Below are positions 33,552-52,656 of a DNA stretch of 64,000 nucleotides, one piece after another. The stretch lies in assembly GCF_001753245.1 (NCBI RefSeq), contig NZ_CP017415.1, positions 2,260,501 to 2,324,500 on the forward strand, written 5' to 3'. Position 1 is the first letter of the stretch, and the number at the start of each line of letters is the position of its first letter. The position numbers were made by a program, and so were the translations under genes. The notes under the pieces were generated by a model. It did no database searches. It was not told the origin of the DNA and saw only the letters and a list, made by a program, of their open reading frames with translations. This DNA is from Acidihalobacter yilgarnensis (GTDB lineage: Bacteria; Pseudomonadota; Gammaproteobacteria; DSM-5130; Acidihalobacteraceae).

Positions 33552-34021
33552 TGACAGCACAGATATGGGTCGACGCCGATGCTTGCCCGGTGGTGATCAA
33601 GGAAATCATTTTTCGCGCGGCCGTGCGTACAAAGACCCAAGTCACCCTGGTGGCGAACCACGCACTGAAAATACCGCCCTCGCCCCTGATCCGCTTCGTG
33701 CAAGTCGCCTCCGGCTTCGATGTCGCGGACAACGAGATCGTGCGGCGGGCGACGGCAGGCGATCTCGTGATCACCAGCGACATCCCACTGGCCGCCGAGG
33801 TGATCGATCAAGGCGCCGAGGCACTCAGCCCGCGCGGCGAATTGTATGCCGAAGGCAACATCCGCGACCGTCTCAACATGCGCGACTTCATGGACACGCT
33901 GCGTGCCAGCGGCATCGACACCGGCGGGCCCTCGGCGCTGAGTCAGGCCGACCGCAAGGCCTTCGCCAACCATCTCGATCGATGGCTGGCCCGTCGTGAC
34001 GTACCGCCAGCCACGCGATAA
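33551..34021 (+). CDS. yaiI: YaiI/YqxD family protein (DUF188)
   Basis: The 156-residue intact protein has an N-terminal [20 protein letters not shown] (PIN-like DADACP motif), [13 protein letters not shown] in the middle and [14 protein letters not shown], all typical of DUF188. The family has a PIN-like nuclease fold, but its function is not established. The ATG overlaps the stop of the degraded MerR-type gene (TGATG), with AGAGGA 6 bases upstream. It seems to have kept its frame while its upstream partner decayed. Confidence 0.9.
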
Positions 34022-34244
34022 TCTGGCGTTTGCGGCACTTGTTGCCACCCGGCATTGCGCGCTTTGCAACCGCGGAGACTTCAATAGCTTCATCGGGCCT
34101 TAACACTTCCAATCCATTCCGCAGGCTTGGCTGTTTCGAACCCGTAATAACCAAATGGCGAGCTACAGCAAGACAGCGAAAAGGTGCTGATATATGTGTG
34201 TTTCTCAACTACCGGCGAAAGTGAACTGTCGGGCTGTAGACGAT

Positions 34245-35039
34245 TCAGTGGACATCCATCACGCGAGCACGGTTTGGGTCATCTAGTTTGTAAATCATGA
34301 CAAGGGCGAGCAACATCAAGATCACTAGTGTAAGCGATATACTCACTGGGCCAGAGCCAAAACCAAGGCCACCAAACCGAATCGGCTTGTCTGTCCAGTC
34401 AGCAAATGATGCGCCGAGTGGCCGAGTCAGGATATAGGCAATCCAGAAGGCTGCGATTTCGTTCAAATCAAACATAAAATAAGCAGCCATCGGAATCGCA
34501 AACAAAAGAACAAATAGTAAACCAGCCCCTAGGTACCCCAAACCCAAGCCTGACGCGGTCATGTCACCAGCGGCCGTGCCCAGTGCAAACGTCGCGACAA
34601 TAGTTGCCCAATAGAATGCTTCTCGCCTTGGAGTATGCACACTATGAATGGAGAGGGTTTTCTCTTTAAGCTTCCAAGCGACTAGAATTCCGATCAAGGC
34701 GACTAAAAAAACGGAGGTGGAAATCTCATAGGGAACGCCTAACACAACATGGGTTACATCCGCAATTTGGGTCCCAAAAATACTTACCATAATAACCGCA
34801 AACCAATAGTAGTGTGCGGAGTATTGATCTCGTCGCATCTGTAGCCAAATAGCAACCAGGAATAACAAACCACAACCCACTACGGCCAGATAGGGATTCA
34901 TGTGAGAAACGAGATAATCCGATGTGGCCTCACCCATAGCAGTGATCAGCAGCTTCATAACCCAGAAATATGGCGTGACTTTGGGTACTTTGAGCGATCG
35001 CGTATTTTCACCAACAATACCAATTGCATCTCTGGTCAT
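34245..35039 (-). CDS. COG4705-type membrane protein
   Basis: The 264-residue protein has about eight hydrophobic helices and a duplicated layout. KVTPYFWVMKLLITAMGEATSDYL near the N-terminus is echoed by FYWATIVATFALGTAAGDMTA in the second half, both with Gly-x-x-x-x-Asp endings. This matches the 'uncharacterised membrane-anchored protein' COG4705; the function is not known. Base composition is clearly more AT-rich than neighbours, suggesting transfer. The start ATG at 35039 has only a weak site. Pseudogenes and IS remnants flank it. Confidence 0.8.
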   Translation of the reverse strand: MTRDAIGIVGENTRSLKVPKVTPYFWVMKLLITAMGEATSDYLVSHMNPYLAVVGCGLLFLVAIWLQMRRDQYSAHYYWFAVIMVSIFGTQIADVTHVVLGVPYEISTSVFLVALIGILVAWKLKEKTLSIHSVHTPRREAFYWATIVATFALGTAAGDMTASGLGLGYLGAGLLFVLLFAIPMAAYFMFDLNEIAAFWIAYILTRPLGASFADWTDKPIRFGGLGFGSGPVSISLTLVILMLLALVMIYKLDDPNRARVMDVH

Positions 35040-35604
35040 TAACGTTCCTTAGATTCACCAAGCAGGGGAAATATGCGCTGGTTCATGGACCTGATATTGA
35101 CCCGGAGAGTTCCATTTCTTAGAACCGAAAACTTACAGATTAAAGATTCTTATGCCGCAACACGATTAGTGTGATTAAAATCCAACCGGGCACCCTGTCG
35201 AACACATGGCATAAGTTCGACAGGAGTCGAATCACCCATCGTCATATGCCTCGATATGAGTTGCAATACATCATGATGTGCGTCCTCACGTCGACGGCAG
35301 CATCTTACCTTGTCGGATGGATTCCTCACGTCAACATTACAGTAGGATGAAAGTTTCGTGCGCTATCGACCTCGTCCAATTTCTGGTTATTATCGGCGAC
35401 GAAACAATTATTGATATGACCCCGTGCAACAACTGATTGCTGTTTTTCCGATATCCAGAACGCGGGGAAACGATTATCCCTGCAACGGCCAAACCCCAGC
35501 ATTACACAGAACTCAGCACAGCTGGGAAACCGGATTCTGTACCTACCGGCAATACTCAATAATTCTTATATCGACGATATTGAAGGAATCATGCGGCGCG
35601 TTGC
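35040..35604. other. AT-richer intergenic region
   Basis: About 560 bases with no supportable gene. Short open frames have no family resemblance. It should hold the promoter of the COG4705 gene (minus strand) and the worn left end of an IS630 fragment. I saw no clear terminal inverted repeat or target duplication. Confidence 0.4.
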
Positions 35605-36140
35605 TCAGCAGTCAGTAATATAGGCAACACTTGGATGCCTGAAGAACAAGCGGATCAGATTCGGCTGGGCGGCCATGTCCGCGAGTTGAAACTGGATGCG
35701 GTCTTCCAGACGTTCTCCGGCACGCAGCGGCCGACGGGCATTGCCCATGTCTTGCCATGCACCGAGTCTGCACGAAAACCTGATTCGTCCCCAAAACAGA
35801 TGTCGGACTTGTCCCACTTGGCTTGGCGGGCAATCGCCGGATGGTTTCCCGTTGCCCGCGCTCGATCACGTCAGGGTCCCGCTGATACGCACGCTGGAGT
35901 GGCTTTTGCGCGGTCAAGCCGATCCGCGCCAGCAACGCGACCACTGAGGCCAAGCTCAGCGAAACGCCCAATCGCTGTGCGATCAGTTCGCGCACGATCT
36001 GGCGTGTCCATAAACCGAAGTCGAAGCATACTGCCGCGGGTTCTTGCCGTTGACCCACCGGAACACTGGGCCTTCTTCCAGCAGGGTACGCAGAAACATT
36101 CCGTGGAATTGCACGCCATGAATCCCCACCTTAAGCCTCA
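35605..36140 (-). mobile_element. IS630-family transposase remnant
   Basis: Pieces in different minus-strand frames add up to the N-terminal and middle parts of an IS630 transposase: RTLLEEGPVFRWVNGKNP, then FDFGLWTRQIVRELIAQRLG, LASVVALLARIGLTAQKPLQ and RAYQRDPDVIERGQRETI, then a frameshifted DESGF-like part. At least two frameshifts are needed. The C-terminal part with the last catalytic acidic residue is missing, so it cannot be active. It abuts the 3' end of the DsbA-like pseudogene. Confidence 0.75.
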
Positions 36141-44785: not shown

Positions 44786-46453
<1,668 letters not shown>

Positions 46454-46458
46454 CCGCC

Positions 46459-46494
46459 ACGTACATCCACCCGTCTTGGCGGGTGGATGTACGT
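46459..46494 (+). terminator. Strong hairpin after ettA
   Basis: ACGTACATCCACCCG and CGGGTGGATGTACGT form a perfect 15-bp stem with a 6-base loop, starting 6 bases after the ettA stop. The following bases (AGTGCTTTCG) contain only a short T-run, so termination may be partial. It also marks the border to the AT-richer GTPase islet. Confidence 0.65.
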
Positions 46495-46648
46495 AGTGCT
46501 TTCGACCCTCTCCGGCCAGTCGAGTAATGGTGACGCGCTGTCGGCTACAGGCCCAACAGCGGCCGCCGCGCTCTGCGGCAAATTTGCAGCGCAGCGAAAA
46601 TTTTGTCCGACAGCAGCGCTTTGTTAGCAGAGTTCGCTGCAATTAAGC

Positions 46649-48358
46649 TCAATATAATGATTGTATTTCTTCGCGAAGCATGACTACGTCTTCTAGTTGC
46701 AAGCGCAGCGCATTAGCGCTATCTGACTTACCCTCAGCCTGTGAACGTATTTCTTGAAGGGCCTCATCGATATTCGTGATAGGCAGATCAAAGCCGGTAT
46801 CAAGTAGTTTCTCGAGCTGGGCGTCGATGCTCTTACGCACGGCATCACTGTACTCTTTGAAACTCTTGCGAATATCCCGCTTTATTTTAAGAATCTTTTT
46901 TGCATGCTCGGACTGCTGATAGTCGTCATACATCTGCATACCAACCCCAAAAATCGCCATGGCTGGACCTAGAAACTTCGCGCCCCTCCCTATTTTATCC
47001 GCTATTTTCACGGCCTCCCAAGCCTTGTACTTGTAGCCAAAAAAACCGCCAATCTCTTTAATAGCGCTGTGTAGCGTACTACCCGAAACTGATTTGAGTC
47101 CTGTTTTAGATGCATCGCCAACAGCACTTTTTGCAAGGAAGGAGAATCCTTTTTCTGCGGATTTCGTCATACTCTGGCTGAGGGCACTGTTAAGCTTCAC
47201 GGGATCATCCTTGGAGAAGCTGCCGACTTTCCTATTTTCAGCATCAGGATTGAAATTCTTTGCAGCATCCAAAGCTTCATTTATCTTCAAACTAGCAGGA
47301 GTATTAGCTAACTCGACTAACTCAGCCTCAAGATCTGATAAGCATTCGCTCACAGTGACCTGCAGATCCTCCAAGGCAGAGTTTATGAGTCGCTCACATT
47401 CATATATTGAGCTGTCCTGTACCTTTTCAAATTCTTCCTGCTCTCCACCCAAAGCATCGGCAAGCTGATTTCCTTGCTCAACAATCTGGCCGTTAAGCTT
47501 GTCTAGGTCCGCTCCGACCTTTTTGATGAGGTCTCGTTTATTGGCTTGAAAAACACGCTTGTTTTGCATGAGTAGGCTAACCAAGCCCTTTTGCAGCGGG
47601 TCAGATATGGTCAGTTCGTCAATTTTTGATTCCAGCGTGATTTGAAGCTGCTGGAGCGGCGTCGTCAGTCTGGCATATAGACCGCGTTGCGCGACAAAAT
47701 CATCAATTGCTTTGGTGAGCCCTTCAGCATTGGAAAGCGCCAATAACTCTTGGCGCTCTTGCACGTCTTTCTCATCCAATGAGTCGAAGAATGACTGGGC
47801 GTCAGTGAAGACGATGGGAAAGTCCTCTGGAATTTTGGGCTCAAGCAGCTGCGTGATGCCCATGATCTTGGTCTCTTTGTCAGCCGAGTCACTTTCAAAC
47901 TTATTGATAACGATCATCATCTCCTTGGCGCGACCTTGGTTGAAACAAAGGTCGCGGAAGGCGGCGCCCACGACATCGTCGAACAGTTCATTGGTAATTA
48001 CGTAAACAAGCAGGTCTGCTTTCGCTATGGCCTCAAGCGCTTTGGCATCATGTTGCTCGCACTCACCCGCATGGATCCCAGGGGTATCCCAGATATTTAT
48101 CGATTTATGTTGGTATTGAGTGACCACATCTGTTGTTACGCCGGCCCCAACCTTAATGTGCTCAATGCCTGTCAACATTTTAATTAAGGAGGACTTACCA
48201 GCATTGTACTGGCCAGCAAAAACAAGATTCAAAGGCGCTAAATTAATATCAAACTCCGCCTCCGATGCCTTGAAGTTGCTGGCGTTCCATAGCTCATTAG
48301 AACGCTGGTAAAGGCTTGCGACCTTTTCTTTGAGAGCACTGTAACCAAATTCAGTCAT
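46649..48358 (-). CDS. LeoA-like dynamin-family GTPase (second gene of pair)
   Basis: The 569-residue GTPase has P-loop GQYNAGKSS (49-57), a G2-type Thr in GVTTDV, DTPG (91-94) and a G4-like NKFESD (152-157). Long helical regions follow (about 230-380), then a Gly-rich hydrophobic patch near residues 420-470 (KEIGGFFGYKYKAWEAVKIA; FLGPAMAIFGVGMQMYDDYQ) that could touch membrane, then a helical end. Length, fold order and partner fit LeoA of the enterotoxigenic E. coli LeoABC locus, a bacterial dynamin. It starts 9 bases after the larger partner with AAGGA overlapping that gene's stop. AT-rich compared with the window. Confidence 0.75.
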   Translation of the reverse strand: MTEFGYSALKEKVASLYQRSNELWNASNFKASEAEFDINLAPLNLVFAGQYNAGKSSLIKMLTGIEHIKVGAGVTTDVVTQYQHKSINIWDTPGIHAGECEQHDAKALEAIAKADLLVYVITNELFDDVVGAAFRDLCFNQGRAKEMMIVINKFESDSADKETKIMGITQLLEPKIPEDFPIVFTDAQSFFDSLDEKDVQERQELLALSNAEGLTKAIDDFVAQRGLYARLTTPLQQLQITLESKIDELTISDPLQKGLVSLLMQNKRVFQANKRDLIKKVGADLDKLNGQIVEQGNQLADALGGEQEEFEKVQDSSIYECERLINSALEDLQVTVSECLSDLEAELVELANTPASLKINEALDAAKNFNPDAENRKVGSFSKDDPVKLNSALSQSMTKSAEKGFSFLAKSAVGDASKTGLKSVSGSTLHSAIKEIGGFFGYKYKAWEAVKIADKIGRGAKFLGPAMAIFGVGMQMYDDYQQSEHAKKILKIKRDIRKSFKEYSDAVRKSIDAQLEKLLDTGFDLPITNIDEALQEIRSQAEGKSDSANALRLQLEDVVMLREEIQSLY

Positions 48359-48367
48359 GACTCATCC

Positions 48368-50473
48368 TTAAATGGCGACGAGGGTAATTTCACAGGAGCA
48401 AAGTGCAGCCACCATTTTTATTCGGCGGTGGTCTTTTCCAATGATCTTGCTAATATTTCTCTTCTGGGCAAACATGGACACTTTATCTTGTTCGGAAATC
48501 TCGATTTTCTCTACAAGCCCCCTATAAAGATGGGAGATTTTTTTATCCAAGCCAGTGTCATACACTACAATAATTTTCTCTCTCATGGCATTACTCATAG
48601 CCCAAAGCAGTTCAGAATTTCGAAAATAATCTGAGATCAGAAAATAACAAGCATAGCCAGGAATCCTCACTATCTTTAAAGCATTCGGCAGAACAAAATG
48701 CTGCTTTTTGATGATGTAAGAAACTCGATTAAGTAGGCGAAAGTTAATCTCATGCCTTAGAGTATAGAGCTGGCTATCAGTGCCATCCAGCTCGCTTATA
48801 AACCCATTAATCGCTTGACAGAGAAGAGATAGATTATTTTCTACCGGCACAATAACTGCTCGATAGATACTTGTGTCGAACCAGCTTTCTAAATTAGCTT
48901 TTATTTTCCGCTTGCCTTTCTCTATATCATCAAGCAAAGCATGACGTTGTTTAGACTTAGCCTCTTTGAGTTTCTTAGCACGACTATCAGAAAAAAATGA
49001 AAATGTTATGAACAAAATACCGACAGCAGCCGCCACCCAGCCGACAGGATTCCAAGAGTTAAAAAAGGCAATTGCGCTTACAACCCCGGTTATAGCAGAG
49101 CCCCAACCGTTTATGCGCTTGAAGTCGAATTCACTGAAGTTCCGACCATCGTGAGCAACCTCGAAAGACAAGGTAATGTCCAAGCCCTCATTCATTTCTC
49201 GATTGAAATCCTGAAGTTCTTCTACCACCTGTTCTGCCAAAGCTTGTATCGATCGCTCTACCTTTTTTGTAATTTTAAAACTCTTGTAATGACGGTCCCA
49301 AGCTACTGCTGCATTCTCATCCTCAATGTGGTCATCAACAAAATCTGCAACAGAGTCAACTAGTGGTTTAAAAGCAACATCCACTTCCTTAGAGAGCAAC
49401 CGCGGCGCATCACGAAGAGTTTTTACCTTCCATTGAGATATACGGGTGAAACTACTTTCATACTGTTGCAAGAGCTTGGTGAGCCGATCCCTTTGGCTTA
49501 AAATGAGCAAGCTCTGTTCATCAAGATGATGAAGGCTTGAATCGAGAAACGTCTGGACTCTACGGATCGGCCCGTTACCTTCAACCTCATCTATGAGCGC
49601 ATTAAGAACCTGATCTATTCGGCTCAGCTCATGTAATTGCGATCCTTCTTCCCCCTTCATGACGGTTGCCAAGAATGCGGCCTGGGCATGAATTGGGATG
49701 ATTCGGACTGTGCTCGGATTTATGCCTGCACGGCCGGCAAGGTTCTTTAATCGGTCAGTATGCCCCTGAATATCTTCTTCTTTAAAAATATATTTTTCCG
49801 GACTTCTCAATGCCCGGCGCCGGTTACCGCTATTCTCTAGATCTTTTTTCATGTTCAACACGAAGATCAAGGGCTTGTTAAGCTTATGAACATGGTCAAG
49901 CTCAACAAAGGTCGACTCTTGGATGCTGTCGCTGTTAAGCATGAACAGCACGACGTCTGACTGTTCAAGAATCTCGTGGGCAATCCGCGTGTCCTCCTGA
50001 CCGTTATAGGCACCGAAGCCAGGGGTGTCGATTATCCTCAAGTTGTTCCATTCGTACTCTTTGACGTCGCGCGTGGTTCTTTGTGCTCCTTTACCAATGG
50101 TCTGGCCATCCCCGCGAGTGATAGCCTCACGAATAGTGCTCTTGCCAGCCATCGTTCTGCCAAAAAGCATGACATTGAAGCAATCTAGGCTTCGTTTCAG
50201 CTTGGCGAGATTGGCGTTTCGTTTCGAGAGAAGCTTTCCATAGTCTCTCTCAAGATCCTGCAGCATGTTGGTCAGGCCATCCTCCACCATTTTGTCTTCG
50301 GATAGCGTCTGGCTACTAAGTTCAATCACGCCCTGCAGTTTTTTTCTCAGAGCCTCAATGATGGTATCGCAGCACTCAAAATAGCCTTGAACGGCTGTAT
50401 ATTCTTCTCTAGCAACTCGATTACAACTCTGGAGAGATGATAAATAAGGTGTATCGTCTACTGCTTCTTTCAT
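48368..50473 (-). CDS. LeoBC-like dynamin-family GTPase with membrane hairpin (first gene of pair)
   Basis: The 701-residue protein has an N-terminal helical region (1-95), then a GTPase domain with GRTMAGKST (105-113), DTPG (149-152) and a G4-like LNMKKD (206-211). After long helices comes a pair of hydrophobic segments at about 459-494 (ITGVVSAIAF...VGILFITFSFF) that would form a membrane hairpin, then a charged C-terminal helical region. Two large GTPases in one operon, one with a membrane hairpin, is the arrangement of heterotypic bacterial dynamins such as LeoBC+LeoA. The ATG at 50473 has GGAG 5 bases upstream; a GTG at 50509 gives 713 residues. Confidence 0.72.
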   Translation of the reverse strand: MKEAVDDTPYLSSLQSCNRVAREEYTAVQGYFECCDTIIEALRKKLQGVIELSSQTLSEDKMVEDGLTNMLQDLERDYGKLLSKRNANLAKLKRSLDCFNVMLFGRTMAGKSTIREAITRGDGQTIGKGAQRTTRDVKEYEWNNLRIIDTPGFGAYNGQEDTRIAHEILEQSDVVLFMLNSDSIQESTFVELDHVHKLNKPLIFVLNMKKDLENSGNRRRALRSPEKYIFKEEDIQGHTDRLKNLAGRAGINPSTVRIIPIHAQAAFLATVMKGEEGSQLHELSRIDQVLNALIDEVEGNGPIRRVQTFLDSSLHHLDEQSLLILSQRDRLTKLLQQYESSFTRISQWKVKTLRDAPRLLSKEVDVAFKPLVDSVADFVDDHIEDENAAVAWDRHYKSFKITKKVERSIQALAEQVVEELQDFNREMNEGLDITLSFEVAHDGRNFSEFDFKRINGWGSAITGVVSAIAFFNSWNPVGWVAAAVGILFITFSFFSDSRAKKLKEAKSKQRHALLDDIEKGKRKIKANLESWFDTSIYRAVIVPVENNLSLLCQAINGFISELDGTDSQLYTLRHEINFRLLNRVSYIIKKQHFVLPNALKIVRIPGYACYFLISDYFRNSELLWAMSNAMREKIIVVYDTGLDKKISHLYRGLVEKIEISEQDKVSMFAQKRNISKIIGKDHRRIKMVAALCSCEITLVAI

Positions 50474-50959
50474 TCTTTCTCCGATTCTTATAGAGCCCAT
50501 AGATTCCACTCAAGATAGAGCTTTTGATTTTTCTGCTAACAGTTGATTAGACCGAATCGGCCATAACAATGCTAAATGGATTCGGTATAGCACCGATTGA
50601 GCGGCATCTTTGATTTCTTACTAGGACCTTGATTATGCCTCACTTTTCTCAAACCCATCGTTTTCACTACGCTGCGCCCATCGATGCTATACGGAATCTA
50701 TAATATCACCGGCATACGGATTACGTCGGCCCATGTCCTGAAACGCTATCAGTTTTCCAGACACCATACTGCCCCCTTTAATCGTGCTCCTGTAAAGACA
50801 TCAGACCGATAAGGTTGATGTCCGTTCACGGGGTGAAGGCAGACGGCCAAATGTAGTGGCCAAGGAGACCGCTTTTGGCCGAAAGCCGTCTACTTCCCAG
50901 CGTTTATCAAGACCATGGACGCTAAACCGCGTAAAATATTGGGCGGCGTCAACCAGTTA
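50474..50959. other. Intergenic region with nested inverted repeats upstream of the GTPase pair
   Basis: About 480 bases without a supportable gene. It holds the promoter of the GTPase operon (minus). At 50841-50891, AGACGGC pairs with GCCGTCT while GGCCAA (50845) pairs with TTGGCC (50875); the two share bases, so they are alternative folds. Near 50655-50695, CCATCG occurs twice around a TTTTCACTACGCTGCG spacer, similar to dispersed intergenic repeats common in GC-rich gammaproteobacteria. Probably worn mobile or repeat DNA. Confidence 0.4.
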
Positions 50960-51253
50960 TTATGCTGCACGGAACTCGATTTTTTGCACGGCATTAAGAT
51001 TTACCGATTGGCGAGCCTGCCAAAGATCAAAGTTGCCTTGCATAGCCAGCCAGCTCTCGGGTGTACGGCCCAAAGCCTTAGACAGCCGGAGCGCCATCTC
51101 CGAACTGATGCCACTGCTGCCATTCAGTACACGATTGAGCGTGGACGGGGCAACGCCCAACTTGGCGGATAACTGTCGTCCGGTGATCTCGAACGGTTCT
51201 AGGTAGACCTCCCGAATAAATGCTCCGGGATGAGGCGGATTGTGCATGGCCAT
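50960..51253 (-). CDS. higA: HigA-family antitoxin
   Basis: The 97-residue XRE-type DNA-binding antitoxin starts HNPPHPGAFIREVYLEPFEI, the HigA signature. Its helix-turn-helix runs through RQLSAKLGVAPSTLNRVLNG, and it ends ESWLAMQGNFDLWQA, all standard. It neutralises HigB and represses the operon. Its ATG overlaps the higB stop (TAATG), so translation is coupled. The order toxin-then-antitoxin is typical of higBA. Confidence 0.93.
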   Translation of the reverse strand: MAMHNPPHPGAFIREVYLEPFEITGRQLSAKLGVAPSTLNRVLNGSSGISSEMALRLSKALGRTPESWLAMQGNFDLWQARQSVNLNAVQKIEFRAA

Positions 51254-51531
51254 TAGTGGTAATCCTCGTAGTTCAGCACATAGGCATGGCCGTCTCGAAA
51301 TTCAAAGGTGACGCGCCAATGCCCATTGACCCATATAGACCAGCGGCCTTTATTCGAGCCTTTCAACGGATGGAGTTCGAAGCCAGGCATGTTCATGTCC
51401 TCAATTACATGGGCAGTATCCAGGGCTACGAGCTGCATCCTCAATCGCTTCGCATGTTGGGGTTGAATTATCGAGGCCGCGCCGGAGTCGTAGAATTTCA
51501 GCAGCCCCTTGTGGCGAAACGATTTGATCAT
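51253..51531 (-). CDS. higB: HigB-family toxin (RelE-like mRNA interferase)
   Basis: The 92-residue toxin is predicted to cleave mRNA on the ribosome. It begins MIKSFRHKGLLKFYDSG, with QPQHAKRLRMQL and later GRWSIWVNGHWRVTFEF, the usual HigB pattern with basic residues of the active surface. The ATG at 51531 was chosen from the family start; the open frame runs 36 codons further upstream into the operator. A 7-bp dyad lies 16 bases upstream. Confidence 0.92.
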   Translation of the reverse strand: MIKSFRHKGLLKFYDSGAASIIQPQHAKRLRMQLVALDTAHVIEDMNMPGFELHPLKGSNKGRWSIWVNGHWRVTFEFRDGHAYVLNYEDYH

Positions 51532-51546
51532 GTACCGATGATAGCA

Positions 51547-51565
51547 TGTTGCGCGCCACGCAACA
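51547..51565. promoter_or_regulatory. Candidate higBA operator
   Basis: The inverted repeat TGTTGCG-N5-CGCAACA lies 16 bases upstream of the higB start codon, the expected position for HigA autorepression. Confidence 0.6.
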
Positions 51566-51996
51566 ATCGATGCGTGGCCGATGAAGAAATCGATCATCGT
51601 GTCCGAGGTCAAGGTAGCCTGGGAAGTGACGCGCAGCACGTAAACAACTGGCCATAAAAGCCGCGACTCGGCGTTGCTCGTCGCTTATTTTGAGCAATCA
51701 AGCTGCGCGCCTCGCGCCTTGATTGGCAGCTTTTTCAGACACAACAGTATCGCTCAATCGTGTGAACAGGCCTTAGAACCATCGCCCTGAACAGGCGTCT
51801 AAACACATCAATTACGACAGTCTAACCACGAACGCATGCCCACAGTCCAAATCAGCCGGATCGATGGAAGGAGCGACGCCCTGACACATAAACTCGCCTT
51901 TCGTGACACGCCGCGTAACGAATAGACCGTGGACGCACGCCATCGCCCGAGGCAGGCGGTGGCGATGGCATGCACTCACAAAACAGGGAGCATCAC
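51566..51996. other. Intergenic region between higB and the methyltransferase
   Basis: About 430 bases with no supportable gene. It contains an 8-bp inverted repeat, CAATCAAG (51695-51702) and CTTGATTG (51718-51725), followed after GCAGC by five T residues, which looks like a terminator for the plus strand though no plus-strand gene ends nearby. The islet border with the housekeeping-type sequence probably lies here. Confidence 0.4.
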
Positions 51997-52656
51997 ATGA
52001 CGAAACAGGAAACAGGCAAACCAGCCGTCAGCGCGGCGCCGCCCATACACAACAGCGAGTTCTGGAACCAGCGCTACGCCGACAAGGCATTCGTGTGGAC
52101 CGCGAACGCGAACCGCTTTGTGGCGGAGGAAACGGCTGGCCTACCGCCGGGCAAGGCGCTCGATCTCGCTGCGGGCGAAGGCCGCAATGCGGTCTGGCTG
52201 GCGGAACAGGGTTGGCAGGCGCACGCAGTCGACTTCTCGGATGTGGCCATGGAAAAGTGCCGCCGTCTGGCGGTCGAGCGTCAGGTGGCGGAGCGTGTGA
52301 CCTGCGAAGTGGCCGATCTGCACGACTATGCACCCACGCCCGGAGCCTACGACCTTGTACTCCTGATCTACCTGCAGATTCCGCAGGACGAGCTGGCCCC
52401 AGTTATCGCGAGGGCAGCCGAGGCGGTAGCGCCCGGCGGCACCTTCCTGCTGGTCGCGCACGATTCGGCCAACCTGAAGGACGGCTACGGCGGCCCGCAG
52501 AACCCCGACGTGCTGTACACCGCCGAGCAGGTGCTCGTCGCACTGGACGACCGACTCGACATCGAGAAAGCCGGCGTCGTCGAGCGCCCAGTGGAAACCG
52601 ACAACGGTATCAAGGTCGCGCTCGACTGCCTCGTACGAGGCAAGCGACCCGATTAA
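51997..52656 (+). CDS. Class I SAM-dependent methyltransferase (TehB/UbiE-like)
   Basis: The 219-residue protein has the SAM-binding motif LDLAAGEGRNAVWLAEQGW (about residues 49-67), followed by AVDFS as the acidic-loop region and post-motif APGGTFLLVAHD. The N-terminal FWNQRYADKAFVWT stretch is common in TehB-like and thiopurine-type members. The substrate is unknown. The ATG at 51997 has GGAG 6 bases before; the longer frame has no such site. It stands alone, upstream of a DUF815 ATPase. Confidence 0.88.
   Translation: MTKQETGKPAVSAAPPIHNSEFWNQRYADKAFVWTANANRFVAEETAGLPPGKALDLAAGEGRNAVWLAEQGWQAHAVDFSDVAMEKCRRLAVERQVAERVTCEVADLHDYAPTPGAYDLVLLIYLQIPQDELAPVIARAAEAVAPGGTFLLVAHDSANLKDGYGGPQNPDVLYTAEQVLVALDDRLDIEKAGVVERPVETDNGIKVALDCLVRGKRPD

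Follow-up and report, generated by a model that had tools for sequence, protein, structure and literature searches.

Several pairs of bacterial dynamin-like GTPases have been described that resemble the locus studied here. Eleos is an anti-phage system that is catalogued by PADLOC and DefenseFinder, with profiles for two proteins, LeoBC and LeoA. LeoABC of enterotoxigenic Escherichia coli (ETEC) H10407 likewise combines a LeoBC-type and a LeoA-type dynamin; there, LeoB and LeoC are encoded by separate genes, with the membrane anchor after a truncated G domain, and LeoA has been proposed to work with LeoBC (PMC4159319). In Campylobacter, a two-gene operon encodes the unlike dynamins Cj-DLP1/2, which tether membranes and which need heterotypic contact between the two G domains to hydrolyze GTP (PMC6104087). 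DynA of Bacillus subtilis is a bacterial dynamin that limits phage spread at the membrane, cutting phage release by delaying lysis (PMC8844932); it differs in being one gene with two fused dynamins rather than a mobile pair. Here, we describe two adjacent genes, leoBC and leoA, from a 64,000-nucleotide stretch of the chromosome of Acidihalobacter yilgarnensis (the window). We think it likely that they are an Eleos anti-phage system, made up of two co-translated dynamin-like GTPases and acquired as one integron cassette.

Both proteins match the PADLOC profiles for Eleos nearly full-length. LeoBC matches PDLC03841 with 373.8 bits (E = 5.7e-112; residues 19-643 against positions 16-570 of 601), and LeoA matches PDLC03839 with 416.6 bits (E = 5.3e-125; residues 34-566 against positions 50-555 of 559), so the profile check that a first-pass annotation of this DNA had called for supported the Eleos identity. 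The gene order, the shared strand, and the co-translational spacing (a gap of 9 base pairs, or bp) are also those of Eleos. Pfam identified MMR_HSR1/Dynamin_N in LeoBC and DLP_helical (46 bits) in LeoA. The best solved relative of LeoA, and the only clear full-family structural relative by sequence, is LeoA from ETEC (PDB 4AUR; 40 bits, E = 1.6e-9). We did not file LeoA under the NCBIfam model for LeoA/HP0731 (NF041922) because its score of 54.9 bits is far below the curated cut-off of 325. Cj-DLP1/2 belong to a different family, with no PDB sequence match to the window proteins at E = 1. The first-pass annotation had likened the pair to both LeoABC and Eleos. The likeness to Eleos stood, and that to ETEC LeoABC is looser: LeoB and LeoC are split there and fused in the window, and LeoA is far from 4AUR. 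These comparisons support Eleos, in its fused LeoBC plus LeoA form, as the best label rather than ETEC LeoABC. The core pair is an already known kind of system, and the first-pass annotation recognized it correctly. It differs from Eleos as profiled in that LeoBC runs about 58 residues past the end of the PADLOC match, with a NusA-like tail, and in that the ends of an integron cassette bound the pair.

The pair itself is as the first-pass annotation described it: two adjacent minus-strand open reading frames of 701 and 569 residues (Table 1), each with a complete P-loop and DTPG motif. In LeoBC, the motifs are GRTMAGKS (G1) at residue 105, DTPG at 149, and NMKKD at 207; in LeoA, they are GQYNAGKS (G1) at residue 49, DTPG at 91, and NKFE at 152. 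By sequence, the G1, G3, and G4 motifs, the hydrophobic hairpin of LeoBC, and the DLP_helical domain of LeoA are those of a dynamin-like pair. The hydropathy of LeoBC peaks at 2.0 in a 19-residue stretch at about 476-495, which falls within the segment 457-495, where a membrane hairpin had been noted (at about 459-494). The ATG of leoA lies 9 bases past the TAA of leoBC, and its ribosome-binding site (AAGGATGA) overlaps this stop codon, again as noted. Arsukibacterium conserves the leoBC start at 50473, which supports this assignment. The pair is indeed more AT-rich than its neighbors: the G+C content is 0.44 for leoBC and 0.47 for leoA versus 0.60 for the window, and the lowest-GC windows of 3.8 kilobases (kb) within the 64 kb all overlap the two genes. 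(A second low-GC stretch, at 0.49-0.51, lies at window 34001-36000.)

Homologs of the two proteins also occur together in other genomes, with LeoBC and LeoA side by side in every relative that we examined. Six other lineages have an adjacent pair in the same order, with 44-91% identity in the nearer ones and 24-30% in the farther ones. The identities (LeoBC/LeoA) are 86%/91% in Stutzerimonas stutzeri, 81%/82% in Arsukibacterium tuosuense, 79%/84% on three Klebsiella plasmids, and 45%/44% in one more genome of the same class; the more distant pairs are on Rhodovastum and Pseudanabaena plasmids. Across 274 genomes of the class, LeoBC was matched at E = 1e-30 in two, LeoA was found in the same two, and the pair was absent from the same-genus genomes. 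Genomes of E. coli had no near DNA match to the pair and no distant match to its attC site (see below). Searches of phages and viral contigs found no relatives of LeoBC and, for LeoA, a single weak match of 19 residues.

The association with defense genes holds in relatives but not in the window, where only the HigBA toxin-antitoxin pair is near. In S. stutzeri CLN100, the pair is nested in a type I bacteriophage exclusion (BREX) operon, between pglX and pglZ and followed by brxL; a PDC-M25 candidate pair is directly upstream (L020 357-14448). The pair from Arsukibacterium adjoins an McrBC-like pair and a tyrosine recombinase (assigned by reading; for the McrBC-like pair, PADLOC gave just a candidate-system match, to the first gene). 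As judged from these homologs, the distribution is that of a mobile defense module. The LeoBC of Pseudanabaena carries another accessory domain, an N-terminal TerB domain (L058 4443-6971). Separately, the host encodes two more adjoining GTPases with weak matches to LeoBC (G000:C1:2876005-2877781), and similar pairs in three other genomes (G001, G002, and G004) indicate that this is probably a core gene pair.

leoBC and leoA appear to have come into the chromosome as one integron gene cassette. A 68-bp element 3' of leoA is common to Arsukibacterium and to six plasmids (from Shewanella, Vibrio, Marinobacter, Pseudoalteromonas, and an uncultured bacterium), and the bottom strand of the family consensus folds as the long imperfect hairpin that is typical of integron attC sites. 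As expected for a cassette, this putative attC is 3' of the last gene and both genes read towards it. The opposite end carries the 9-mer GTTAGCAGA, which would complete R' in the circular form and is a perfect 9/9 complement of R'' (TCTGCTAAC). The 9-mer occurs twice in the 64 kb, in inverted orientation, at 46623-46631 and 50532-50540 (0.23 occurrences expected in all). The attC region was unremarkable when folded in place, but rejoining it to the 5' end of the cassette gave a significant attC-type hairpin (z = -3.2). Because the 9-mer is at both ends and the rejoined site folds in this way, we conclude that leoBC and leoA alone probably fill 46564-50539. The homology to Arsukibacterium begins at the 5' G/TTA step and spans the attC. 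The host has an intact IntI (473 bits) and an array of three or more attC sites, but the cassette is not in an array beside intI/attI: the host's array is at about 22.5-26 kb of the chromosome (G000:C1), about 2.3 Mb away from the window (2.26-2.32 Mb). The pair would therefore be an out-of-array cassette and not an integron. The host's array is short and includes small unknown genes (L064 7500-9660; G000:C1 about 22.5-25.7 kb). Rfam had no hits above threshold, and the exact attC consensus was not found in viral contigs.

The same attC family also occurs behind other genes. On a Vibrio pectenicida plasmid (L024 1668-3072), it ends another cassette-borne defense system, a ThsB/ThsA (Thoeris) pair, and the next gene past this Thoeris cassette has its own attC-like site; on a Shewanella plasmid, it is 3' of a gene for a DpnII-MboI-type nuclease. 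Integrons are already known as stores of defense systems (Darracq 2025 and Kieffer 2025, as cited in PMC12409362). Like the defense cassettes of sedentary and mobile integrons, in which defense genes lie between attC sites, the window's cassette would be a defense cassette, but it is large (4 kb with two genes) and is outside of the host's array.

The PADLOC match to LeoBC ends at residue 643 of 701, but the final 105 residues are kept in all close relatives (SKIIGKDHRRIKMVAALCSCEI). This tail resembles the tandem KH module of NusA. A profile of the tail had KH proteins as its best matches in the PDB (IGF2BP, E = 2.9e-4; NusA 1HH2 over KH1-KH2, E = 0.22). The tail of the Rhodovastum protein matches positions 216-336 of a NusA model (E = 0.0013), and the window's own tail matches a NusA-like KH protein (E = 0.025), with no match to Pfam's KH families. 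The strongest test of the likeness to NusA was a blind one: when 398 genomes were searched in six frames with the tail, seven genomes were matched, two of them in LeoBC and the other five (5/5) in NusA at KH1-KH2. A comparison of LeoBC to NusA with hhalign was weak (4 of 200 column shuffles scored equally) and is not relied on. The two KH units follow one another in the order and with the spacing of NusA KH1-KH2. The differences from NusA are that the tail is fused to a dynamin-like GTPase, that its first KH is degenerate, and that the GxxG loop is altered in the window's copy. A related genome (G060) has a split LeoB that lacks the KH tail, and in the LeoBC of Pseudanabaena, which has the TerB domain instead, the tail is not clearly recognizable. 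Our literature search found no paper that describes a NusA-like tail on LeoBC, with the primary Eleos papers outside its reach.

Family membership, pairing, GTPase motifs, the hairpin, the cassette ends, and the NusA/KH-like tail can all be read from the sequence; for how the proteins would act, we rely on analogy with the Campylobacter pair and on the proposal for LeoA and LeoBC. Most likely, LeoBC and LeoA, its soluble partner, form a heterotypic complex that is anchored by the LeoBC hairpin and that assembles on the inner membrane at infection. GTP turnover would require both G domains, and the hairpin would dock the complex on the inner membrane. Infection would activate the complex, perhaps because the KH tail touches nucleic acid or a transcription complex. 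The membrane would then be remodeled by GTP-driven assembly, and the infected cell would die early or would release fewer phages.

Several observations weigh against this account. AlphaFold models of both proteins, from alignments of three rows, had a predicted confidence score (pLDDT) of 36, so the dynamin and KH folds are unconfirmed, and the window itself is not a defense island. Also, ETEC LeoABC is tied to vesicle release and toxin secretion and not to phage, and leoAB mutants of ETEC shed about half the vesicles (PMC4159319). The pair could thus be a Leo-type membrane-remodeling pair for vesicle release, envelope repair, or secretion, as fits the general membrane-surveillance roles of bacterial dynamins (PMC8844932). 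We consider this improbable because the pair is mobile and sporadic (see the genome counts above), because relatives are nested in BREX and on plasmids, and because the cassette's attC family also carries Thoeris. It is similarly unlikely that the pair arrived by homologous or illegitimate recombination, with the attC-like element carried along by chance. The distance from the host's array would fit that explanation, as would the bases after the crossover G (GCC, not TT) and the copies from Klebsiella and Stutzerimonas, which are without attC. In addition, each of the same-genus genomes holds other genes between ettA and the methyltransferase gene, so that none gives an empty site for comparison. 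Chance does not readily explain why the 9-mer lies inverted at just the two predicted ends, why the rejoined site folds as an attC, or why the homology to Arsukibacterium spans the same segment; the host also has the intact IntI and attC sites, and cassettes have been reported to integrate at non-classical sites in genomes (Loot 2024, as cited in PMC11023631). Overall, we favor an Eleos system that was acquired as a cassette.

What the KH tail does is a separate question. We hypothesize that it could be the infection sensor: in this subclass of Eleos, the tail of LeoBC would recognize nucleic acid or the transcription machinery upon infection, recognition would be coupled to dynamin-based remodeling of the membrane, and the whole would be mobile as a self-contained cassette. 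We offer this tentatively, as the GxxG loop of the window's LeoBC has become GKDH, with the second glycine lost, so nucleic-acid binding by this tail is not assured. The tail might instead be a decayed KH-like fold for protein contacts only, such as with LeoA, that does not bind nucleic acids, and we give this somewhat more credence, although still less than even odds. The loop is GKDH, GKDR, or GKEH among the four closest LeoBC, and the shuffled profiles that equaled the hhalign score point the same way; on the other hand, two distant LeoBC with the tail retain the canonical KH form of the loop, which reads GNRG in L063 and GPDG in Rhodovastum, and within the close set the loop hardly varies and is strongly basic.

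The neighbors of the pair (Table 1) are also as the first-pass annotation placed them, with HigBA next to the pair and with ettA and the methyltransferase gene to either side. HigBA (window 50960-51531) is upstream of leoBC. We considered whether it was part of the Eleos system and rejected this, as it lies beyond the ends of the cassette and did not occur next to the relatives that we examined. Within the genus, the stretch from ettA to the methyltransferase gene (window 46490-51960; L048, L049) varies in gene content. For example, one genome (G001) has RNA-ligase-like, CPBP-protease-like, GNAT, and methyltransferase genes there, and another (G002) has a transposase and other genes.

Table 1. 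Features of the leoBC-leoA locus, in window coordinates.
Feature	Coordinates	Strand	Basis or remark
leoBC	48368..50473	(-)	dynamin-like GTPase, 701 amino acids, ATG start
LeoBC P-loop GRTMAGKST, residues 105-113	50135..50161	(-)	motif reading
LeoBC hydrophobic hairpin/paddle, residues 457-494	48992..49105	(-)	hydropathy
LeoBC NusA-like tandem KH tail, residues 597-701	48371..48685	(-)	profile searches
leoA	46649..48358	(-)	dynamin-like GTPase, 569 amino acids
Putative integron-type cassette, leoBC and leoA only, 3,976 bp	46564..50539	(-)	attC, 9-mer ends, homology limits
Putative attC, cassette-borne portion (R'' to crossover G)	46564..46631	(-)	alignment and fold
Putative cassette 5' end GTTAGCAGA	50532..50540	(-)	complements R''
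ettA	44786-46453		flank of pair
HigA antitoxin	50960-51253		NCBIfam TIGR02607, 104 bits
HigB toxin	51253-51531		Pfam PF05015; likely true start ATG 51531
Methyltransferase	51970-52656		flank of pair

The putative cassette ends would account for an AT-rich pair amid housekeeping genes; they also mark precisely what to clone as the complete natural unit. To our knowledge, it is not established how Eleos senses infection. Because the NusA-like tail is kept in proteobacterial fused LeoBC and is absent from the split form that we examined (G060), it may offer a concrete and mutable candidate for the sensor.

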